Part shown: positions 6,700-61,490 of the stretch, one piece after another
How positions within the stretch are numbered: the first letter of the stretch is position 1
Layout of the letters: each line of letters begins with the position of its first letter
Assembly: GCF_036250695.1 (NCBI RefSeq)
Contig: NZ_CP109428.1
Coordinates: forward strand, 124,001 to 188,000
Length of the DNA: 64,000 bases
Reading direction: 5' to 3'
From: Streptomyces sp. NBC_01497
GTDB lineage: Bacteria; Actinomycetota; Actinomycetes; Streptomycetales; Streptomycetaceae
The notes under the pieces: model-generated
Told to the model about the DNA's origin: nothing
Seen by the model: the letters and a program-made list of their open reading frames with translations, nothing else
The model's database searches: none
Position numbers and translations under genes: made by a program

Positions 6700-8143
6700 C
6701 AATGCCGTTGCTTGAGTGTGGCAAGCGGTTCGTGGTGACGTTGGAGGAGCGCGGTCGTTGGACCCGGCATGCATCCGTGGGTGGGGTTATCTGATCATGT
6801 GCGGCTGGGGGTGGTGACCCGATGGGTGACCCCGGAGCTCGTCGCTGAGGTGCTGGAGAAATGCGGGGTTCGCGACAAGAAGTCCGGTGCCCTGCCGGCC
6901 GGGCTCATGGTCTACTTCACGCTCGCCCTGGCCCTGTTCCAGCAGGACTCCTACGACGACGTGGCGGAGCAACTGGTCGGCGGTATTGCAGAGTTGAGCG
7001 GAAGCATTCCCAACAAGTCTTCGTTTACGCGGGCGCGCAGACGCCTGGGGCCGCTGGTCCTGGAAACTATGTTCCGCGAGCTGGCCGGCCCGTTGGCTCC
7101 TGTCGGTTTGGAGAGCGCCTTCTATCGCGGGATGCGTCTGGCTGCGGTGGACGGGTTCGTGCTGGATGCGCCGGATACGACGGCCAACCGGGCCGCGTTC
7201 GGCGGGCCAGTCAAGAACGGGCAGCCCGCGGGGTTCCCGCAGGTGCGGGTGGTGACGCTGACCGAGTGCGGCACGCACGCGCAGATCGATGCGGCGGTGG
7301 GCGGGTTCAACGGCGGCGAGCCGGAGTTGGCGATCAAAATGGCCGGCTCGGCCGCCGGGATGCTGGTGATCATGGATCGGGGATTTCCCGGGGTGGCGCT
7401 GTGGAAGGCGTATACCGGGGCCGGGGCGCATCTGCTGATCCGGGCCCGTTCGAGTGTCGCGGCTCGTCCGGTCCAGCATCTGCCCGACGGCACCTATCTG
7501 GCGAGGATGAACCTGGCCGGGCAGAAAGGCGCGCATCCCGGCGGTGTGCTGGTCCGGGTGATCGAGTACCGCGTCGATGGCGGCGAGGTGGTCAGGCTGT
7601 TGACTGATCTGTTGGACCCGGTTGCTTATCCGGCGGCGGAGTTGGCAGGGCTTTACCATGCGAGGTGGGAGGCGGAATCGGCGTTCCGGCAGATCAAGAC
7701 GTTCCAGCGTGGCCCGGTCGAGGTCCTGCGCTCGGGCGACCCGGATCTGGTGCGTCAGGAGGTCTGGGCGCACCTGGCCGTGCACCACTGCCTCACGCAG
7801 GTCATCGTAGGTCTGGCTGACGACAACGGCATCGATCCGGACCGGGTCTCGTTCGTCAAGGTCCTCAAGCACGCACGGCGCAGCGTCGTCCGCCAGTCCT
7901 CGGACACGCCTACAAAAATCAAAGAGTTCCTGGCCGTGCTGGCGGCGAAGGTGCACCGGAAGCTCGACAACGGCGCCAGGCGCCTGCGCGAGGCGGACCG
8001 GCACCTGAAGCGTCCGGACTCGAAGTACTCCTCGAAGCTCTCCTACCGGATCAACACCCGGGACCGGCGGCCGACGCGACAGATCACAGCCAAGGTCATC
8101 ACGCTGCAGCCCGCAATGGTTCAGTAGTCAAGCAACGGCATTG
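6700..8143 (+). mobile_element. Complete IS4-family element with inverted repeats and 10-bp target duplication
   Basis: The element is bounded by perfect 16-bp inverted repeats: CAATGCCGTTGCTTGA at 6700-6715 and its complement at 8128-8143. The 10-base sequence GCCGGGCACC flanks it directly at 6690-6699 and 8144-8153, a target duplication in the 9-12 bp range of IS4-type elements. This is the youngest-looking insertion in the left third of the window. Confidence 0.92.
6769..8127 (+). CDS. IS4-family transposase (intact)
   Basis: A full-length DDE transposase of 452 residues. It has an N-terminal IS4 domain (VTPELVAEVLEKCG), the first catalytic Asp in LAAVDGFVLDAP, the second in VIMDRGFPG, and YHARWEAESAFRQIK, an exact Y(2)R(3)E(6)K signature with the catalytic Glu. 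The ATG at 6769 follows a GGAGGAGCG stretch at about 6745; slightly earlier starts are possible. Frame and motifs are undamaged, so the element may still be active and could act in trans on the related relic at 3512-4866, whose left inverted repeat is identical. Confidence 0.9.
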   Translation: MHPWVGLSDHVRLGVVTRWVTPELVAEVLEKCGVRDKKSGALPAGLMVYFTLALALFQQDSYDDVAEQLVGGIAELSGSIPNKSSFTRARRRLGPLVLETMFRELAGPLAPVGLESAFYRGMRLAAVDGFVLDAPDTTANRAAFGGPVKNGQPAGFPQVRVVTLTECGTHAQIDAAVGGFNGGEPELAIKMAGSAAGMLVIMDRGFPGVALWKAYTGAGAHLLIRARSSVAARPVQHLPDGTYLARMNLAGQKGAHPGGVLVRVIEYRVDGGEVVRLLTDLLDPVAYPAAELAGLYHARWEAESAFRQIKTFQRGPVEVLRSGDPDLVRQEVWAHLAVHHCLTQVIVGLADDNGIDPDRVSFVKVLKHARRSVVRQSSDTPTKIKEFLAVLAAKVHRKLDNGARRLREADRHLKRPDSKYSSKLSYRINTRDRRPTRQITAKVITLQPAMVQ

Positions 8144-8871
8144 GCCGGGCACCTCGAAGTGGAACAAGATCGAGCACCGGCTCTTCTCGCACATCACCAT
8201 GAACTGGCGCGGACAACCCCTGACCAGCCACGAAGTCGTCCTCAACACCATCGCCACGAACACCACTCGCACCGGACTGCGCGTCGAGGCCGCTCTCGAT
8301 CGCGGCTCCTACCCGACAGAAATCGCTGTGAGCCGCGAACAGCTGCAATCCCTGCCGATCACCACACACGCCGACCACGGCAAGTGGAACTACAGCATCG
8401 CCCCCGACGGCGGCACGGCCCTCACCCCCGAGCCGATGAACGGACCGCCGCCCGCCAGCGCACCCTGCGGATACTCGCTGGCCCCCGCCTGACCGGCGTG
8501 ACCACCACCGAACCGGATCAATTACGGGCAAAATTGGCACCGGTCCAGGAAGCCCAGGCCGAAACAGCGCCGCTACGTACTGCGCGGAGAGCGACGCGTC
8601 GCCACGACCGGCCGCAGCCGAGCACTGCTGTCGGACGCCGACGAGGTACTTCTCACCTGCGGCAGGTCTGCCCGCAGAAGGTGCTCTGCGACCTGCTCGG
8701 GATCAACCCTGTCACCATCGGCCAGGCCATCAAGGCGCCCCGGAAGCCGCTAGACGAACACAAGATTGACATCACGCCGACCGCCGTGCGCTACTTCACC
8801 CGCGCCGAAGACCTCCGCGACTGGGCCACCAACACCGAACCCGGCCGAGCCCCCGAGGCTGCTATGTGGTG

Positions 8872-9953
8872 TCAAGCAGCTTGTGCAAGCTCCTCGACGC
8901 TTCCGATCTTGGTTCGGTGAATCCGTTCGAGAATCTTGAAGATCTGGCGGCAGATGGTGCGCTTGAGACATCGCTGAGCGTCGCGGGAGGTCTTCCCCTC
9001 AGGGATTCTCCGGGCGACGTACACCGTCGTTGTGGGGTCAAGCCGCATGCGGATCAGGGTGATCGTGTGCATAGCCCGGTTAAGCTGCCGGTCTCCGCTG
9101 CGGTTGAGCCGGTGCCGGTTGGTGAGCCCGGAGGAGGCAGGGATCGGTGAGACGCCGGCGAAGGACGCGAAGGCAGCTTCCGAACGGAAACGGCCCTGGT
9201 GGGACCAGCTGACCAGGATCTGAGCCGCGGTGATCGGCCCGACCCCGAGCAGGCCGAGGAGCGCGGGAGCGACTCCCTTGACCAGGTTGAGGATGTCCTT
9301 CTCAAGGTCTTTGGCCTCGGCCTGCAGGGCCTGGATGCGTGGTGCGGTGGAGCGAAGGGCCCGTGTTGTCATCCGGTGCTCAAGGTCCTGGACGGGGCGG
9401 CCCCGGAGCTGGGCGCAATAGGTGACCTGGGCCGGGCATTTGAGTTTCCGCAGCTCGGCGCGAAGGTCGTCGGGCGCGGAGACGATCAGGGCCTTGAGCT
9501 GGTTGATCGCGGCCGTGGAAGCGAGGACCGCCCCTTGGCGGGTGGCGAGAAGGACACGCGGCGCCTCGCGCTCCCCGCGGAGTCGGGGCTGGATCAGGTG
9601 CTCAGTGGACAGGGCATCCTTCGCGGCGCGGATGGCATCGACCATGTCGGTTTTCGTCCGCCCCGGTTGGCGGCCCGCTTGGGCCGGCAGACCTCGACGA
9701 CATGCTCGCCAGCCTGGTCAAGGAAGGCGGCGAGTCCGGCGCCGTAGCTGCCGATGCCCTCCAGAGCCCAGCAGCAGCGTCCCTGGACGTGCTCGCCGGC
9801 GAAGTCCAGCAGGCGCCGGTAACCGCGGGCGTTGGCCGGTGAGTCGGTGCTGGCCAGGACGGCGCCGATGGGACTGACCGCCGCCGCTGCGAGGGTGTCC
9901 CGGTGGGTATCGACGCCGATGACGCCGTCGACCTGTTCTGCGAGGATGGCCAC
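8872..9953 (-). pseudogene. IS110-family transposase (group B), single frameshift
   Basis: The N-terminal part (9953 to about 9655) has the DEDD-domain motifs VIGVDTHRDTLAAAAV and WALEGIGSYGAGL. The C-terminal part (about 9645 to 8872) has MVDAIRAAKDALSTEH, LLGLLGVGPITAAQIL and FASFAGVSPIPASSG. The two parts are in different frames, joined at NRGGRK(T)DMVDA near 9660 by loss of one base in a short A-run. Otherwise the 350-odd residues are complete. It is unlikely to make full-length protein unless the A-run allows slippage. Confidence 0.8.
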
Positions 9954-53091: not shown

Positions 53092-53760
53092 ATGCGCTCC
53101 GGCCAAGGAACACGCACGTTCAGAACGAAGGCCGTGAGGACGAGTCTGCTGCATCACCATGCCCGGGCGGACACATTGGCGCAACTGTCATGCGTCCGGG
53201 ACGAGTTCCACTCGTGCCTGGCCGCTCGCTCGGACGCGTTGTTCGATCTTGCTGATGCCGTTCTGTGCGGCGACGGCCCGGCAGGGTCGCTGGCGGAGCT
53301 GTCGCTGGTGGGTGAACACCGCCGGGGCCATGTAGGTCTCTACGCCGCCCTCGTCCGTGGAAGCATCGATGCTGGCCGGCTGCGGCGGGTCCTGGCCGAA
53401 GTCCCGCTGCCACGGGCTGCCGACGGCCGGCTGGTCCGGGCCATCGAGGTCCCCTGCTGGCTGCGGCCCGACGCTCACACCTCACCGCAGCGGATTCCGT
53501 GCCACACCTACGGCCGGGGAAGGGACCAGCACATCTCCGTTCCCGGTTGACCTTATTCGATCGTCTGCGCACTGAAGCCGGGCCGCAGTTCGTGGACCGC
53601 GCCTCTGGATGCGCTGCGCCTGGTGCCTCGGGAGGACACCGCCCGGCAGCTGCGCGATCTACTTCGGCAACTGATCACAGCCGGGCAGTGGCACAAGGGC
53701 GACCCGGACATCCTCATCGTCGCGGGTGCCGGATACGACGCTCCCCACCCCGGCTGCCGC
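53092..53760 (+). pseudogene. NF041680-type transposase, internally deleted
   Basis: The first frame reads FHSCLAARSDALFDLADAVL, AELSLVGEHRRGHVGLYAAL, VEVPCWLRPDAHTSPQRIPC-like and YGRGRDQHISVPG. In another frame follow LRLVPREDTARQLRDLLRQL and GDPDILIVAGAGYDAPHPG. This is the N-terminal half of a Streptomyces transposase family I know as NF041680, with a deletion and frameshift near 53550. Confidence 0.65.
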
Positions 53761-53784
53761 ACACCCAGGGCCGACCGCCCAGGC

Positions 53785-54154
53785 GCGGAGTCGAGCACCG
53801 CCCGGGACAGGTCGAGCAGGCCGGCGTTGTCCAGGCGATGCAGGATCTCCTCATGGAGCCGACCCCAGACACCGGCTCTCGACCAGATCAAGAACCTGCG
53901 GTAGGCCGTCGACTTCGATATCCCGAAGCAGGGCGGCAAGGCCCGCCATGCACAGCCGCTGACCAGGACGTAGATGATCGCCGCGAACAGCGTCTCATCA
54001 GGCGTGCCCTGCGTCCCACCGCCCTGCAGCCGCACCATGAACGGAGGGAGCAGCGGCTCCGCGATCTCCCACAAACCCTCCGGAACAACCCAACCCCACG
54101 TACCCCGCCCTCTGCGCAGACCAACCAGCCAACCCCACATAGGACACGGTCCTT
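53785..54154 (-). pseudogene. IS5-family transposase, truncated
   Basis: The 5' part on the minus strand: RGRGTWGWVVPEGLWEIAEP, ALPPCFGISKSTAYRRFLIW and RLDNAGLLDLSRAVLDSA. It ends where the NF041680 fragment begins. Its outer end (CACATAGGACACGGTC) touches MITE copy C. Confidence 0.75.
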
Positions 54155-54409: not shown

Positions 54410-55177
54410 TCAGAGATTCTGCCGAGAAAATGTACGAACTGCCCACAAGAAGGCCACCGATGTCATGACTGCCAAAGCGGCCATTCCGGGAAACAGCGCG
54501 TGAACTGAGAAATCGCCACGGAAGCTTGCCCTGCTGGCATCCATGACGTAGGCGACTGGGTTTAGTCTGGAAAGTTCCCATAGCCAAACCGGTGCAAGCT
54601 TAGCGGTGATTGGCAAGAGTGTTCCCGAGAGCAGAAACAGGGGTAGCAGGAGTGCGTTCAGTACTGCGGGGAACCTCTCCTCGCTCTTCAACCGCAAGGC
54701 CAAAGCATAGGAACTTGATGCGATGGCGATGGATAGGAAAGCGACGATAGACATACACAAAATCACGCCCAGGACTGGAGGCTCGACACCGAACACCACG
54801 ACACATAGAAGCGTGATCGCACCAGCCTGAGTCAGCACGTTGAGGGCAACTGCAAGCAGCTTTCCTGTTAGCAGAGCAGTCGGCCTCATAGGGCTAACAC
54901 TGAACCGATCAAATACGCCAGAACGGTACTCTGCAAGCAGGCTTCCGCCCACGAATGAGCTGCCGATAATGACCATTTGAACCATGAGGGCCGGTGCGAA
55001 CACCGTCCAAATCCCGCCGGGCGGGAAACCAGGTGTATATGTTACAAACTTGCCGACCAATGGGCCGAAGAAGAACATGTATAGGACAGGTTGAGCGAGA
55101 CCCATCACGAGCCAGGCTGGCTGACGGTATTGGTGGACCATCTCTCGACGGAAGACCAACCATATATCAAGCGACAA
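54410..55177 (-). CDS. ABC transporter permease, DrrB/ABC-2 type
   Basis: About 255 residues with six hydrophobic helices of the ABC-2 exporter family: QPAWLVMGLAQPVLYMFFFG, GSSFVGGSLLAEYRSGVFDR, FSVSPMRPTALLTGKLLAVA, ALLLPLFLLSGTLLPI and LSRLNPVAYVMDASRASF. These are standard DrrB landmarks. The frame is open up to 55276, which would overlap the ATPase gene by 110 bases. The TTG at 55177, just inside the ATPase stop, with AAGAGG upstream, gives the usual DrrB start and tight coupling. It is the last gene of the minus-strand peptide cluster and probably exports the product. Confidence 0.87.
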   Translation of the reverse strand: MSLDIWLVFRREMVHQYRQPAWLVMGLAQPVLYMFFFGPLVGKFVTYTPGFPPGGIWTVFAPALMVQMVIIGSSFVGGSLLAEYRSGVFDRFSVSPMRPTALLTGKLLAVALNVLTQAGAITLLCVVVFGVEPPVLGVILCMSIVAFLSIAIASSSYALALRLKSEERFPAVLNALLLPLFLLSGTLLPITAKLAPVWLWELSRLNPVAYVMDASRASFRGDFSVHALFPGMAALAVMTSVAFLWAVRTFSRQNL

Positions 55178-56186
55178 CGTAGGAGTCAGCCTCTTCCGGT
55201 TGAGTTTCCTTCGATCGAAGGATACCTTTTTCTGCGGAGCGGAGGCTACGGCCGGTGAGGTTAAAGAAAACATCATCCAAGGTCGGCCGACTTACCGCGA
55301 GCGCGAGTGTTGGGATGGCGGCACTATCCAGTGTACGCAGCAGCTCTGGCATCACGGAGTGAGCACGCTGGACGCGGAACTGTACCTGCACTCGGGAGGA
55401 AATGACATCTTGGGTGCCGACAATCTGCTTGACGAGGTCAAGGACAGCTTGCACGTGGTCGGGCGCTACCTCTACAACTATGTTGTCTCCCGAGATCTTC
55501 GCTTTGAGCGAGTCCGGACTTCCTTCACCTACGATTCGTCCGTTATCCATCACCAGTATCCGATCACATAGGGCGTCAGCCTCCTCCAGGTAGTGGGTGG
55601 TGAGGAAAACCGTTGTGCCTTCCTCGCGATGCAGGTAACGGATGTGGTCCCACAGGTTGGCGCGGCTTTGTGGATCGAGTCCGGTGGTCGGCTCATCGAG
55701 GAAGATAAGTTCTGGCCTGTGGATCAAGCCCATGGCAATGTCTAGGCGTCGGCGCTGCCCTCCTGAAAGCTTCGCGGCCAGGCGCCCCTCTAGGCCCACC
55801 AGCTCGAACCTTTGCGCTAGCTCGGCGACGCGCTGCCTGGCGACCCGCTTGGTGAGGCCGTATAGCCGGGCTTGCATCTCGAGTTCCTCCGCAACAGTAC
55901 TTTGCGGCGAGCTGCCGAATCCTTGGGCCACGTACCCGATTTTTCTACGTACCCCGCGCGGGTCCTTCAGCAAATCACAGCCGCCCACGGTTGCCTCTCC
56001 CGTAGTGGGCCGCAGCAATGTCGTCAACATACGCAAGGTTGTGGTCTTCCCCGCGCCATTCGGCCCAAGGAAGCCCACGAGCTCACCGGGTGCAACAGAG
56101 ATATCGATGCCGTCAACGACATTGATCGGGCGGTCCTTTCGGCTCCCCCCCGGGAACTGTCGCGTAAGCCCTCTCGCTGTGATCAT
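55167..56186 (-). CDS. ABC transporter ATP-binding protein, DrrA type
   Basis: 339 residues. Walker A GFLGPNGAGKTTTLRML, Q-loop YVAQGFGSSPQST, signature LSGGQRRRLDIAMGLIHRPE, Walker B LIFLDEPTTGLDP and H-loop FLTTHYLEEADALCD are all present. The C-terminal DrrA extension ends with PTLDDVFFNLTGRSL. It overlaps the permease start and forms a two-gene export unit 88 bp behind the P450. DrrA/DrrB pairs commonly export or give self-resistance to the product of the cluster they sit in. Confidence 0.93.
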   Translation of the reverse strand: MITARGLTRQFPGGSRKDRPINVVDGIDISVAPGELVGFLGPNGAGKTTTLRMLTTLLRPTTGEATVGGCDLLKDPRGVRRKIGYVAQGFGSSPQSTVAEELEMQARLYGLTKRVARQRVAELAQRFELVGLEGRLAAKLSGGQRRRLDIAMGLIHRPELIFLDEPTTGLDPQSRANLWDHIRYLHREEGTTVFLTTHYLEEADALCDRILVMDNGRIVGEGSPDSLKAKISGDNIVVEVAPDHVQAVLDLVKQIVGTQDVISSRVQVQFRVQRAHSVMPELLRTLDSAAIPTLALAVSRPTLDDVFFNLTGRSLRSAEKGILRSKETQPEEADSYVVA

Positions 56187-56274
56187 GCTGCTCTTGGTTT
56201 TCCTTCCCAGGCTGCCGGCTTGTCGGCTGTGGATGCGATGCGCGGATGCAGGACCTGGCAGCGCAGGGTATTAT

Positions 56275-57492
56275 CTACCAGGAAACGGGTAGGCTGCCGA
56301 CCCCGTAGATCGCCGATGAACGTCGAAAAGGAACCTTCTCAAGAGGTACATCGAGACGGAGTCCCGGAAATCGCCTGAGGAGTGCAGGGAAGGCGATCTG
56401 CATTTCCATTCGGGCGAGTGGTGCCCCTATGCAGTAGTGGATTCCATAGCCAAAGGCGAGATGTGTCCTGATCCCGCGCGCAGGGTCGAAGCGGTCACCA
56501 TTTGGGCTGAGCGCTTCGTCGTGGTTTGCTGAAGGAAGAGAGCACAACAGCCGCTCCCCCCGCCTAATGCTTTGGCCGGCGAGGACTGTGTCGGTCCGGG
56601 CCACACGCGGAACGCCAGTCTGCACCACGGACAGGTAACGCAGCATCTCCTCGATGATGTCACCGGTTCCCTCATCGGCCCGCATTGCAGCTGCGTGTTC
56701 GGGATTTAGAAGAAGCAGTAGTGTACCGAGCGACAGCATGTTGACGGTTGTCTCGAATCCGCCGAGCAACAGCAGGTCACCGACACCAGCAAGCTCCCGA
56801 TCATCGATCTCACTGCCGTGCTCACGCACAAGCATACCGAGAACGCCTTCGTCAGGGTCGACGCGTAGGCGGGGCACGAGCCGGGTCATGTAGGCCAGCG
56901 AAGCACGAGCTGCTGCCATGCGAGTTGCTCGGTCGCGTGTCCCATCAAAGCGGACGACATTGTGCTCATTGAACTCGGCCCTGTCCTCGTAAGACACGCC
57001 AAGCAACTCGCAGGTCACCATTGCCGGTACAGGTAGAGCGAACGCCTTGACGAAATCCGCTGGCGATCCGGCATGTTCCATTGTTTTGAGGATTCGCTCG
57101 ACGGTCTCCTCAACTTGAGGCCGCAGTGACTCGACACGCCTAGTAGAGAAGGCTGGGGCGATCATGCGACGCAGCCGCCCATGTTCCGGTGGGTCATAGG
57201 TTGTGAGGTCGCCGTGGCGGGCTGGAGCTCCAGTAGCCATAACGTCTACTCGACCCGACGGGTCGGGTAGGGTGCCATCGCTGCCGAACCTCTCTGGGTC
57301 CGAGAGCACCTCGCGGACGTACTCGTACCGGGTGACGATCCAAGCCAGCGCCCCCGTGGGTAGCATCAGCCGCTTCACAGGCTGCTCCGCGCGGAGGGTG
57401 GCGAGCTCGCTCGATAGACCAAAGGCATTTCGTCTAATGTGTGGCGGAACTTCAATGTCTTCTTCGACCGGCACGGACTCTTTGTCAACCAT
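56275..57492 (-). CDS. Cytochrome P450
   Basis: 405 residues of a soluble bacterial class I P450. The I-helix is LLLLGGFETTVNML; ExxR is in EEMLRYLSVVQTGVPR; the meander reads FDPARGIRTHLAFGYGIHYC, with the heme Cys at about residue 354 followed by IGAPLARMEMQIA. The usual HNRDE is SANHDEAL here. The ATG at 57492 is the closest methionine; a TTG nine codons earlier is possible, and neither has a strong ribosome site. It needs ferredoxin and reductase partners from elsewhere. Placed between the prenyltransferase/DUF2332 pair and the exporter, it is a likely tailoring oxidase for the same product. Confidence 0.93.
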   Translation of the reverse strand: MVDKESVPVEEDIEVPPHIRRNAFGLSSELATLRAEQPVKRLMLPTGALAWIVTRYEYVREVLSDPERFGSDGTLPDPSGRVDVMATGAPARHGDLTTYDPPEHGRLRRMIAPAFSTRRVESLRPQVEETVERILKTMEHAGSPADFVKAFALPVPAMVTCELLGVSYEDRAEFNEHNVVRFDGTRDRATRMAAARASLAYMTRLVPRLRVDPDEGVLGMLVREHGSEIDDRELAGVGDLLLLGGFETTVNMLSLGTLLLLLNPEHAAAMRADEGTGDIIEEMLRYLSVVQTGVPRVARTDTVLAGQSIRRGERLLCSLPSANHDEALSPNGDRFDPARGIRTHLAFGYGIHYCIGAPLARMEMQIAFPALLRRFPGLRLDVPLEKVPFRRSSAIYGVGSLPVSW

Positions 57493-57559
57493 TCGCTGAT
57501 GTCGTTTCTCGTTGACCAATCGCCAGGCCAGCCGGGCCGCGGTGCCTAAGTCGCCTCCC

Positions 57560-58385
57560 AGCTCTCTGGGTTCACAGCACCGGGCACGTAGACCGTTTCA
57601 TACATGGCGAGTTGGTCGTCGTCGTGGGCATTGGGAGTGGATGGTGGCGGTGGACCGTTGCAGACGGACTATGCGCGATTACCCGACCGTTGTTGCCACA
57701 GGCGCATGTGCCTTCAGGGCAGTGGAGTGAGGAACATTGATGATGATGCGGTCTTCGAGGCGGTCATCTATGCGTCAGTCAATGGCTGCGCCTGCCGTGT
57801 GTTGCAGCCGCGTTTCGGTGCGTGGTGGTCGACGATGCAATCGTCTGTTCGTCATCAGGTCTCAGGCAGGACTCTGAGGCTGGCTGGACCAGTAGATCCT
57901 CCGGCTCCTGGACGAACGGGGACTGGTCAACCTGTCCTGCGTGGTCCCGGACTTACGGGTTCGAGCCTATGAGGTGAGCATGTCCTGTCCGATGCAGACG
58001 GATTACTCTCACGCGTTGCTTTCTCCGTAGCTAAGCTGATGCTGTCCCATTTCCCCATTTGACACGACGACCACGCGACCGGTTCCAAGCCCAAACGTCC
58101 GCATGCCGACAAGGCGTAGGGTGTCCGCCATCTGCGGCGGCGGGTATGGGGTCGACACATCAGCGTCCGCCATGGCTCGCAAGGGCATCGAGTCCAGTGA
58201 GTGATGAGGACGGGACGTCGACGGCGGGTCATCGAGCGCACCGTACTGTGGCTGACCGGCTCCCGCCGACTCCACAACGGTTGCGGACACCACTCTGGCA
58301 ACTGCCTGGCTTTTCTTGAGCTGGCAACCGCCCTTTGCCGCTACAAACGCTTTCGCAACCCGACCAAGTAGGACACGGTCCAAGT
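57560..58385 (+). pseudogene. Heavily decayed IS5 relic inside the cluster
   Basis: Weak but consistent IS5 traces run from DDDAVFEAVIYASVNGCACR and VLQPRFGAW to VIERTVLWLTGSRRLHNG-like sequence near 58230. The end AGTAGGACACGGTCC is at 58367. Many frame changes. It separates the P450 from the DUF2332 gene and is much older than the other IS5 copies. Confidence 0.65.
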
Positions 58386-58391
58386 CCAGCA

Positions 58392-59348
58392 TTACGAAAA
58401 AACCGTGACCTGTAGCCGCGGCGCTGCTGCCCAGGCGTTTGGTTCGTAACAAATACGGGCCAGCCGCATGTTTCGTGCAGCTGAAGCGAGGATCTCCTCG
58501 ATTGCGGCCTGATCCCCAGTACTTAGGTACCACCAGAAGAGGCTATGCCACACCACTGTGTAAGTTCCGGGTGGGACAGGGAGGGAGAGTTGTTCCTTGA
58601 GCCACTCCACAGCGTTCGCCTTATCAATCTGCACGCCAGAATGGACGGCGAGCGCTATAGCGTCGTCCAGTTCGAGTTGTTCCACATAGCTCTCTTCTGC
58701 AATGAAGGAACGCAAGATCATCGCGTCCTGAAGATTGGAGGCGTCGCGCGGGGAGATGTCACATCCCGCCCGGTGGACAATCTGGATCTCGCCAGGTCGT
58801 GGCCCCATAGCAGTCAAACGTACGGAGGATGAGGTGTCACCCCATTGCCAGCCGCTTCCGAACCACCGGTAGTGGTCGAAGATGAGGTTCAGGCCGGCAC
58901 ATGCACCGATCTCCAACAGTCGCACTTTGGGTGCGGCTAGCATTCCTAGGCCGCGTAGAAGGTAGCCAGCGCGACGAGGTTGGTGCTGTTGAACGGGACG
59001 GTCCATGGCTTCGCGTATTGCATCAGGATGGTCGAGCAGGGTTCGCCGAAAAAGGTGGCGAGTGCGCTCTGAATAAACAGGGTCACCGAGGCGTGCCGTC
59101 AGACTTTTAAGATGTACAGCCAGTTCAGGTGCACGACCGGTAATGGTCAAGAGCCTAACGCCTGCTAGCGCACGTAGATAGTATAGTGGCGTGGCGGAGT
59201 CTGCATGGTTGGCAAGAATTTGAGCGACGGGTCCGAAGGCCTCCAATTCATCGGTGAGCATGGTGAGCATGTCCGCCGACATCGGCGCGGACTGCACCAT
59301 CGATGCAGCCATGGACCTCAGTTCCCGGATACTCTGTTCAGGGATCAC
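58392..59348 (-). CDS. DUF2332 family protein (methyltransferase-like fold suspected)
   Basis: 318 residues. Conserved DUF2332 landmarks are PLYYLRALAGVRLLTITGRA, FRRTLLDHPDAIREAMDRPV, LLEIGACAGLNLIFDHYRWF (144-163), GCDISPRDASNLQDAMILRS and VWHSLFWWYLSTGDQAAIEE. The EIGACAGLNL stretch resembles motif I of SAM-dependent methyltransferases, but the family has no established reaction. The GTG start overlaps the prenyltransferase stop by four bases (GTGA), so the two are translationally coupled. In this context it could modify the prenylated peptide, perhaps by carboxyl methylation; that is conjecture. Confidence 0.85.
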   Translation of the reverse strand: MIPEQSIRELRSMAASMVQSAPMSADMLTMLTDELEAFGPVAQILANHADSATPLYYLRALAGVRLLTITGRAPELAVHLKSLTARLGDPVYSERTRHLFRRTLLDHPDAIREAMDRPVQQHQPRRAGYLLRGLGMLAAPKVRLLEIGACAGLNLIFDHYRWFGSGWQWGDTSSSVRLTAMGPRPGEIQIVHRAGCDISPRDASNLQDAMILRSFIAEESYVEQLELDDAIALAVHSGVQIDKANAVEWLKEQLSLPVPPGTYTVVWHSLFWWYLSTGDQAAIEEILASAARNMRLARICYEPNAWAAAPRLQVTVFS

Positions 59349-60349
59349 ACAGCACCTCTTTCAGCCGTGAGGCGTGCATCCTCTGCGGAAGCGTCAATCA
59401 TCCACTGGATGAGGTCTCGGTGCTCTGAAGGCTTGGCCAGCGCCCCGAGCAGGCCTGATAGTTTCCTACGAATGACATAGATTCGGTCGTTATACGCAAT
59501 GGCCGCGCTTGTTCGAGACAGATGTTCACGAATCTCTCTTCGAGCTACGGTATCCAGCCTCGCTCGGTCGCGCAGCGCCGCGAGAGCATCCGCCTCAGTG
59601 GGGTTAGCCATCTCTACTGCCAGAGCCATCAGCAAGGTCCAGGTGCCATTTTCCAGGTCCCTATCTTCACCAAGGCCATGCGAGGCACGATCATTGGCCA
59701 TCTGACGCAGGATGCCGAAAAGCTTACCGAAGACCCGCCAACCTTCGATCGCTTGGTTGCCGACGCGAGCAAGCATGGCTGTCATCGCAGCGTCTCTGCC
59801 GTACGGAGCGCCGGACTTGCCAGCATAGATCCGCATAGTAGTAGACCAGGTAATCGCGTTCGGACTTGCAGAAACATCGTCGAGTTGACCCTCGGCCGAA
59901 CGGAGCGAACTTGTTACAAACTCACGCGCCCACGCGGCTCGCAGCTTTGCTGGAACGTCTAGATGTTCGATTAGCAATTGAGGAACCAAAGTGAGGCATG
60001 CTGCGCTCGAGATGCTTGCCTGGGCTGATGACAGCCCCACTTGCTCTGGGTCAAAGTCGCCATCGGTAAGATCGTCAAAGCTCTCCGCGCCAGTCCACCA
60101 CAGCCTGGACAGCATTGCCACTGGCAGTGCTGACTGGGGGTCTGCAGTGATCGCTCCAAGCACAGGGAAAGGCAGCAGGCGAAAAGGGCTTTCTGTGCTG
60201 CCGTCGCTGTCGAGTAGCTGCAATATTGCTGCAGACAAAGACGGTCGGTCTCGGGCAAGTAGGGCAAGCTCCGAAGAAAGAGCAGCGGTTACCATCCGGC
60301 GACGCTCCAGCAAGGTCCGGTAATGCTCAGTCACGTCTTTATCGGACAT
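59345..60349 (-). CDS. Polyprenyl-synthetase-fold protein, ComQ-like peptide prenyltransferase candidate
   Basis: 334 residues of the all-helical isoprenoid synthase fold. The first Asp-rich motif is DDLTDGD at 92-98 (WTGAESFDDLTDGD). A KSGAPY segment at 178-183 matches the usual KTG helix of polyprenyl synthases. The second motif is degenerate: FGKLFGILRQMANDRASHG in place of DDxxD, followed by DLENGTWTLLMALAVE, which matches the usual DL..GK.TLP..AL block. Loss of the second DDxxD with ND in its place is reminiscent of ComQ, which prenylates a Trp of the ComX pheromone. The ATG at 60349 is fixed by GAGGAGG 5-11 bases upstream; the longer frame to 60448 adds an unlikely N-terminus. A short peptide gene precedes it. 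Confidence 0.78.
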   Translation of the reverse strand: MSDKDVTEHYRTLLERRRMVTAALSSELALLARDRPSLSAAILQLLDSDGSTESPFRLLPFPVLGAITADPQSALPVAMLSRLWWTGAESFDDLTDGDFDPEQVGLSSAQASISSAACLTLVPQLLIEHLDVPAKLRAAWAREFVTSSLRSAEGQLDDVSASPNAITWSTTMRIYAGKSGAPYGRDAAMTAMLARVGNQAIEGWRVFGKLFGILRQMANDRASHGLGEDRDLENGTWTLLMALAVEMANPTEADALAALRDRARLDTVARREIREHLSRTSAAIAYNDRIYVIRRKLSGLLGALAKPSEHRDLIQWMIDASAEDARLTAERGAV

Positions 60350-60454
60350 ACACGCCTCCTCGGCAACCCCACAACGAGAAATCACAAGCGCAGCGGCGAG
60401 TAGCCTATGAAGGCGAGGAGTTAGACGGAACTCAATTACCTTTGCCACGCTCCC

Positions 60455-60496
60455 ACCTCATCCGATCCCCCTCGAATTGGGAGGATCGGATGAGGT
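60455..60496 (-). terminator. 14-bp-stem hairpin between peptide gene and prenyltransferase
   Basis: ACCTCATCCGATCC (60455-60468) and its exact complement GGATCGGATGAGGT (60483-60496) enclose 14 bases, with a further CCC/GGG pairing. No T-run follows on the minus strand. It lies 35 bp after the peptide stop. Such a structure commonly lets a precursor gene be expressed above its modifying enzymes by partial termination or mRNA protection. Confidence 0.65.
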
Positions 60497-60530
60497 GCTA
60501 CACATGCTCAGCGAAACCGAGCGTGGTCGG

Positions 60531-60668
60531 TCAGCACCAGGTGTTGGACCCGCCGCCATGCTCGTTCGTTACCACGTAGGTGGATTCTTCCTCGGCGCCG
60601 ACAGAACCGGCCTCCCAGCTTCCATCGCCGTCAAGCAGCAGTACAACTTCCTCAATTTCAGCGTTCAT
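60531..60668 (-). CDS. Candidate RiPP precursor peptide (45 aa, C-terminal ...SNTWC)
   Basis: A 45-codon ORF starts at an ATG with AGGAG 5 bases upstream. The peptide starts MNAEIEEVVLLLDGDGSW, is acidic through its middle (a leader-like section rich in Glu and Asp), and ends NEHGGGSNTWC. The Gly-rich stretch and the single Trp-Cys at the very end look like a short core behind a leader. The neighbouring ComQ-like enzyme suggests prenylation of the Trp or of the C-terminal Cys. There is no CaaX box. No signal peptide or lipobox is visible. The small size keeps some doubt, but the ribosome site, the hairpin after it and the adjacent enzymes all support it. Confidence 0.75.
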   Translation of the reverse strand: MNAEIEEVVLLLDGDGSWEAGSVGAEEESTYVVTNEHGGGSNTWC

Positions 60669-60984
60669 GAGTCTCCTAAGTTAAAAGGACCAAATAAATA
60701 CTCACTGAATGAGTTCAGGAGCATCTCGCATCGGCAACTTAGCATCCATTCTTCTTTGTGATCAAGCAACCCAGCATCGTCGCCTGCAAAAAATGATCGC
60801 CTGTTCATAGAAAATAGATATTGAGCCTTTGCCAACTTGCTTGCGGCTGTGAGTCAGTTGGTTCGACACATGAGTGAAGCCCTGGGTGGACGGATTCACG
60901 ACCAAGATCACCTGTACCCACCAGAGGCTTCACGTGCTCGTCCACCCGCGCGGACTGGACGTGTTTAGTCGGTCCCTGCCGTTC
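60669..60984. promoter_or_regulatory. AT-richer region upstream of the peptide gene
   Basis: About 315 bases, locally AT-rich at 60680-60830 (for example AAATAAATACTCACTGAATG), in contrast with the surrounding high GC. It is the expected promoter region of the minus-strand peptide cluster. No regulator gene adjoins it. Precise boxes were not assigned. Confidence 0.45.
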
Positions 60985-61247
60985 CTCGCCTCTCGTCCGC
61001 GCGAACACCGTCGCCGAATCGGAAGCCGCTGGCGTCGATTCCCGGCTGGCCTCAAGCCCTGTTGGTGCTGGCCCATCTGCGCAACTGGGCCGCGTATACC
61101 CAGCTCGCAGACGGTCTCGAGATCGGGACCAGCACGCTCTACCGCCATGTCAGCGAGGCCGTCGACGTCCCGGCCGCTGAAGCGATCGCCGATGCGGCGA
61201 CCGCCCTTACAACCCAACATAGGGTCGGACAGGCCGTCATCACGTGA
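60985..61247 (+). pseudogene. HTH_Tnp_4-type transposase N-terminal fragment
   Basis: LVLAHLRNWAAYTQLADGLE and IGTSTLYRHVSEAVDVPAAE match the helix-turn-helix N-terminus of IS5-type (DDE_Tnp_4) transposases. Only about 80 residues remain. It borders the peptide cluster on its right side. Confidence 0.6.
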
Positions 61248-61332
61248 GCCTCGCGTGTTCGCTAACCTCGATCTTTCGTCACGGTCCGCTGGGCTCTCTC
61301 TCACGGATCGTTTCGGTTGTCCGGGCTGAGCC

Positions 61333-61490
61333 TAAGGGTTGTCCCGTAACTGGTTCGACGTCTTGCGCGCGTCCGGTTCGACCCGATTCGCGGCGATGTC
61401 GTCGAGCCTCGAAACTCAGGCCAGAAGCGGACAACCCGTCCGAGTGACGATGACCGTCCGCCCCTCCAGTGACTTACGGGACAGCCCTTA
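61333..61490. repeat. 158-bp MITE, copy D (diverged)
   Basis: TAAGGGTTGTCCCGTAA and TTACGGGACAGCCCTTA form the best-preserved inverted ends of the family. The length is again 158 bp, but the interior is only distantly related to copies A-C, so it is an older or separate subfamily. Confidence 0.75.

Follow-up and report, generated by a model that had tools for sequence, protein, structure and literature searches.

The window analysed here is a 64,000-nucleotide stretch of Streptomyces sp. NBC_01497 (contig NZ_CP109428.1, positions 124,001 to 188,000; the contig comprises 528,823 bases of a 9.08 Mb genome in two contigs), and it contains a candidate cluster for a prenylated, ribosomally synthesized and post-translationally modified peptide (RiPP). 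An initial annotation described a same-strand set formed by a short peptide gene with a strong ribosome site, a ComQ-like prenyltransferase (PT), a coupled DUF2332 protein, a cytochrome P450 and an ABC exporter. This gene content holds: all six open reading frames (ORFs) are intact at the positions originally given (Table 1), the ribosome site is present, and the start of the DUF2332 gene overlaps the PT stop by 4 nt (GTGA), in keeping with the proposed coupling. Pfam assigns DUF2332 (E = 9.2e-54), P450 (E = 2.5e-30), ABC_tran together with DrrA1-3_C, and ABC2_membrane, and NCBIfam as well as Pfam supports the P450, the DrrA-type ATPase (307.8 bits against TIGR01188, cut-off 312.45) and the DrrB-type permease, while DUF2332 is assigned by Pfam only. 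For the PT, Pfam gives only a weak polyprenyl_synt match (24.9 bits against a cut-off of 27; E = 1.4e-5). The 45-residue peptide has no match in Pfam or NCBIfam. A strong ribosome site, judged by eye, precedes the PT start at 60349, where its close homologues also begin. The genome encodes a single PT of this clade family, a single DUF2332 protein and a single match to the precursor profile described below, which is the window peptide.

Table 1. Features of the candidate cluster, in positions of the window.
Feature	Position	Strand	Basis or remark
Precursor peptide, 45 aa, leader EIEEVVLLLDGD, C-terminal ...GGGSNTWC	60531..60668	-	AGGAG ribosome site
Strong hairpin, 18-nt arms and 8-nt loop, in the precursor/PT spacer	60454..60497	-	probable attenuator or mRNA-stability element
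PT, trans-isoprenyl diphosphate synthase-like peptide prenyltransferase, first aspartate-rich motif DDLTD, pseudo-second motif QMAND	59345..60349	-	predicted
DUF2332 protein, putative S-adenosylmethionine-dependent (carboxyl) methyltransferase	58392..59348	-	Pfam and predicted fold
IS5-family transposase remnant, outside the pathway	57589..58386		66-73% identity to IS5 family transposases
Cytochrome P450, probable oxidative tailoring	56275..57519	-	Pfam
DrrA-type ABC ATPase, probable export or self-protection	55167..56186	-	Pfam and TIGR01188
DrrB-type ABC-2 permease	54410..55276	-	Pfam, NCBIfam

A protein search returned 22 relatives of the PT at 43-65% identity, and the 11 that carry an organism name are all from Streptomyces. 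In a tree that included one canonical synthase, ComQ not being among its rows, the window PT lies inside a 34-row clade that has a Shimodaira-Hasegawa-like approximate likelihood ratio (SH-aLRT) support of 100, sits on a long branch and is recovered with either 75 or 82 rows. The initial annotation had asked whether the enzyme groups with ordinary chain-length synthases; the clade instead stands apart from the canonical synthase included, and other Streptomyces homologues (~27-39% identical by tblastn) are placed outside it. Loci with genomic context were drawn from genome contigs, plasmids and genomes of the window's genus, class and family, and twelve belong to the clade: the window, L004 (Streptosporangium subroseum), L005 (Streptomyces hygroscopicus), L006, L007 and L009 (both Lentzea), L008, L042 (G275), L052 (G364, PT truncated), L062 (a plasmid of Streptomyces sp. 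NBC_00271), L063 (a Streptomyces clavuligerus plasmid) and L071 (G892).

The short peptide recurs at most of these loci. ORFs similar to it lie upstream in L004, L005, L006, L008, L009 and L062; a second copy is present in L005, L042 has one ~5 kb away, and L071 has one upstream. In S. clavuligerus (L063, 8407-9360), six adjacent ORFs of 40-54 residues, annotated merely as hypothetical proteins, lie beside the PT-DUF2332 pair on the opposite strand and have a common leader followed by differing tails (NNC, NGC, NHC, HQC, GSC and PGC). No precursor was found in L007 or L052. A profile built from 16 peptides and applied to 4949 small ORFs at E < 0.1 has hits at 10 of the 12 clade loci and at none of the 33 other-PT loci (32 distinct), so the co-occurrence of peptide and PT that the initial annotation proposed to check is borne out. 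Across 31 whole genomes it matches all six with an intact clade PT, the one with a truncated PT not at all, 0/7 with only a distant PT and 1/17 of the others (E 0.09, 21 positions). Because all six whole-genome positives are peptides from which the profile had been built, a leader-only, leave-one-out test was carried out, in which the tested locus was removed and the last 12 residues were cut. Of the 10 loci tested in this way, 8 had a peptide ranked first among their small ORFs, with E-values from 0.0007 to 16, so that rank weighs more than E-value in this test. In the window it ranked second among 120 small ORFs (E 15, insignificant); in L005 the second copy ranked top and the first copy fourth, and in L063 the peptides ranked fourth at best. 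As compared across these sequences, the recurrence of the peptide beside PTs of the same clade is above chance, and a gene-encoded precursor conserved beside its putative modifying enzymes is the arrangement expected of a RiPP cluster, whose precursor would also be chemically modified and freed of its leader.

The PT has the predicted fold of isoprenoid synthases, and, with the truncated L052 set aside, its first aspartate-rich motif (FARM, DDxxD) is kept in 33/33 clade rows, a combination of fold and motif characteristic of ComQ-like peptide prenyltransferases. The same 33 rows all carry a ComQ-type ND in the second aspartate-rich motif (SARM), in line with a rule given in PMC5331326, by which an NDxxx or GDxxx pseudo-SARM replaces DDxxD in ComQ. 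The ComQ-like motif pattern first noted in the window is therefore a property of the clade, although the ND motif is not specific, as 38 of 40 distant PTs share it. The two stretches associated with the isopentenyl diphosphate (IPP) site, of the GGKxRP and RR-after-FARM types, are each found in 0/33 rows. From these missing stretches, the invariant SARM Asn and an alignment to 1wy0, we rejected a canonical trans-prenyl diphosphate synthase. A related proposal, that the enzyme makes a prenyl diphosphate or terpenoid for a small molecule and that the peptide is a regulator or is unrelated, is improbable on the same loss of IPP-site stretches and of the first SARM Asp, and because the peptide tracks the PT clade. 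The distant enzymes include a second, larger Streptomyces group (L043-L051, L072-L083 and others), to which the 38/40 count of ND motifs applies and whose loci have no precursor-family peptide alongside; some distant PT domains lie within open frames of 921-940 residues, perhaps as fusions (G036:C1:1189494, G048:C78:1723 and G265:C49:74152).

The most constant feature of the precursors is their last residue, which is Cys in 21 of 22 distinct peptides. By comparison, among small ORFs that have a ribosome site, Cys is terminal in 66 of 2288 background cases and in 9 of 49 that lie on the same strand ≤700 nt upstream of a PT (three of these nine are from duplicate contigs). Trp, the acceptor in ComX, occurs in only 6/22 peptides (within the last 15 residues in 5/22), with the window peptide itself having it at the penultimate position; ComX-style Trp prenylation is therefore not the shared chemistry, and a Trp acceptor is available in a minority of members. 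We consider that these loci are RiPP clusters in which the C-terminal Cys of the precursor is S-prenylated by the PT and probably carboxyl-methylated by the DUF2332 protein, and we put the probability of this reading at roughly one half. The initial annotation's series of precursor, prenylation, tailoring and export stands as regards the conserved peptide and the PT clade, but the candidate residue is Cys rather than Trp, and P450 and exporter genes accompany only part of the loci.

Two other uses of the peptide have to be weighed against S-prenylation of the terminal Cys. In the first, the PT places the prenyl group on the Trp or Tyr that precedes the Cys, much as ComQ and PalQ prenylate Trp, and the Cys is used otherwise, for instance as a thiol methylated by DUF2332 or in a cross-link made by the P450. 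We regard this as unlikely, though several observations favor it: W, Y or F stands next to the end in 13/22 distinct peptides, a P450 is near the PT where peptides end in aromatic-Cys (the window, L005, L006, L008 and L071), and every characterized trans-isoprenyl diphosphate synthase-like PT acts on Trp, according to a 2026 review (PMC13290415). L004 weighs both for it and against Cys as the sole acceptor, since its PT is intact and its peptide ends in ...GYT, retaining the Tyr and not the Cys. However, the P450 association breaks at L042 (...YNYC), where an FAD oxidoreductase close to the cluster takes the place of the P450, Trp itself is infrequent, and in 9/22 peptides (the six S. clavuligerus copies, L062, L009 and P0033) the penultimate residue is not W, Y or F, even though their PTs, where known, are from the same clade. 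In the second, the peptide is a carrier rather than the product, and the modified Cys is released from it to give a small molecule resembling prenylcysteine, following the scaffold-peptide principle of PEARL/TglA. The constancy of the last residue above a variable tail and the six related copies in S. clavuligerus are compatible with a carrier, which we nevertheless judge improbable: the tails vary between copies as they do in product peptides, and the nameable families shared among the neighbors, which were scanned in part, include no leader protease, other peptidase or Cys-processing enzyme. Eukaryotic CaaX-type prenylation was rejected as a candidate in its own right, as the PT has an isoprenoid-synthase fold and 21/22 peptides have nothing after the Cys.

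The DUF2332 protein, proposed initially as a tailoring enzyme, is found at 9 of the 12 clade loci (it was not found in L009, L052 or L071; in L062 it lies ~6 kb from the PT on the opposite strand) and is best read, from its predicted structure, as a methyltransferase. Of the 8 pairs in which the two genes are contiguous, 7 show a 4-nt overlap of PT stop and DUF2332 start and the remaining one, L008, a longer overlap (by eye), which suggests joint action of the two proteins. In a tree for which the program issued a long-branch warning, all nine copies linked to a PT group together in a single clade (SH-aLRT 99), separate from the 28 other Streptomyces DUF2332 proteins included; of 392 genomes sampled from the genus, 56 encode the family. 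Eight of the nine linked copies have the motif LLE(I/L)G(A/S)CxGLNL, with GLGL in L063. A model built from seven sequences (pLDDT 82.3) aligns over residues 114-318 with class I S-adenosylmethionine (SAM) methyltransferases at Z scores up to 9.3, barely higher than the 7-8 that is typical in this tool without a clear match, and the predicted Rossmann methyltransferase fold and glycine-rich motif I are those of class I enzymes. DUF2332 is thus likely a methyltransferase. Foldseek places PPM1, a C-terminal carboxylate methyltransferase, first, weakly (TM ~0.3) and with no match at E <= 0.001. DUF2332 would resemble LCMT-1/PPM1 in acting on a C-terminal carboxylate, a reading aided by the terminal Cys of the peptides, whereas profile-profile comparison with the LCMT-type subgroup shows no significant similarity and there is no match to Pfam LCM (PF04072). 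Of the 28 DUF2332 proteins outside the PT-linked clade, 20 likewise carry a SAM-type motif I pattern, and the wider family may consist of methyltransferases with other substrates. Neither DUF2332 nor PF10094 is named in the open-licence literature searched.

The remaining neighbors are more variable. A P450 or its remnant occurs in 9/12 clade-locus stretches (~5 kb distant in L052 and L062; not found in L007, L009 or L042), and a DrrA-like ATPase at 5/12 (the window, L004, L005, L042 and L062). In L007 a canonical polyprenyl synthase gene (8064-9233, minus strand) adjoins the PT-DUF2332 pair and could be a donor synthase. Related LuxR-type (GerE) proteins, possible regulators or receptors, lie by three clusters (L005 15885-16676, L007 9808-10692 and L042 14404-15315, the last divergent from the precursor); the neighbors scanned yielded no histidine kinase, though no search was aimed at these kinases. 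The 181-nt peptide-PT spacer of the window has a minimum free energy of -80.1 (z -3.57), equalled by 0/200 dinucleotide shuffles, and of the 8 loci whose spacers were examined, 7 have local stems of -31 to -43 kcal/mol, L071 being weaker at -27 (mononucleotide shuffles only). Such a hairpin would fit production of the precursor in excess over its enzymes.

The IS5-type remnant, absent from the initial annotation, separates the DUF2332 gene from the P450 and exporter genes, and transposase-like sequence and shared repeats, partly identified by eye, occur on both island flanks (~60870-61490 and ~53500-54150). The GC contrast is modest (0.54-0.63 in the island, 0.58-0.72 on either side). In the Streptosporangium locus L004 (5244-5393 and 2957-3088), the P450 survives only as a remnant and the precursor has Tyr-Thr rather than Cys at its end. 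The debris in the window and this P450 remnant raise the idea that the window copy is a decaying island devoid of present function; with six intact reading frames and a coupled PT/DUF2332 pair, we think this very unlikely.

The pathway that we propose for Cys prenylation is grounded in gene content, a conserved peptide with a conserved terminal Cys, the PT/DUF2332 overlap, the loss of IPP-site signatures and the predicted folds. The precursor would be translated with its functional Cys already last, the leader guiding binding, and the PT would move a prenyl group, expected to be C10-C20, from a prenyl diphosphate onto the Cys thiol. As the Cys is encoded last, its carboxylate is free without CaaX proteolysis, and DUF2332 would then use SAM to methylate this alpha-carboxylate of the prenylcysteine. 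Where present, the P450 would oxidize either the prenyl tail, giving a group comparable to the hydroxyfarnesyl of tremerogen A-10, or the aromatic residue before the Cys; the leader would be cut off by a protease encoded elsewhere, and DrrAB would export the lipopeptide, which may serve as a signal or an antibiotic. More tentatively, bacteria may have independently evolved C-terminal Cys prenylation and carboxyl methylation of secreted peptides, yielding a-factor/tremerogen-like actinomycete lipopeptides through a ComQ-type enzyme with a Cys acceptor and a new soluble family of prenylcysteine carboxyl methyltransferases, DUF2332, with no CaaX protease needed. If so, bacteria would have arrived by convergence at the lipidated terminus that fungal pheromones and Ras-like proteins carry, DUF2332 would gain its first function, and there would be small enzymes that may place a prenyl methyl ester on Cys-ending peptides. 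Since few proteins are involved, the pathway is directly testable, also in S. clavuligerus with its six precursor copies. The open-licence literature searched yielded no account of a RiPP with bacterial Cys prenylation; for Archaea, PMC13290415 mentions a cysteine that bears an archaeol group.

Among known systems, ComQ/ComX of Bacillus and PalQ/PalX of Paenibacillus are alike in their trans-isoprenyl diphosphate synthase fold, intact DDxxD, Asn-Asp pseudo-SARM and adjoining small precursor gene, and PalQ too acts at the very C-terminus, as described in PMC5331326, PMC13290415 and PMC10853753. The present clusters differ from both in that Cys takes the place of Trp as the conserved candidate acceptor, and in having a DUF2332 partner, often with a P450 or an ABC exporter. 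Ord1 (PDB 9v4g-9v4j), a farnesyltransferase whose substrate is the free amino acid Trp according to PMC13290415, is among the best PDB profile matches of the PT (E 1.2e-6) and has the DxxNG stretch in common with it; unlike the PT, it still has the RR stretch behind the FARM and a SARM of the DD type. The chemical end product predicted here is closest to that of fungal pheromones such as a-factor and tremerogen A-10, which are likewise short Cys-ending peptides with S-prenylation and carboxyl methylation, optional oxidation and ABC export. Yeast a-factor is a prenylated mating pheromone exported by Ste6, and tremerogen A-10 is a hydroxyfarnesyl Cys methyl ester, as stated in PMC5331326. The bacterial route would nonetheless be distinct, as the Cys is encoded last and leaves no CaaX box for cleavage, the PT has a fold unrelated to that of the farnesyl- and geranylgeranyltransferases (FTase/GGTase), and the candidate for methylation is a soluble protein of the Rossmann type rather than a membrane enzyme of the isoprenylcysteine carboxyl methyltransferase (ICMT) type.

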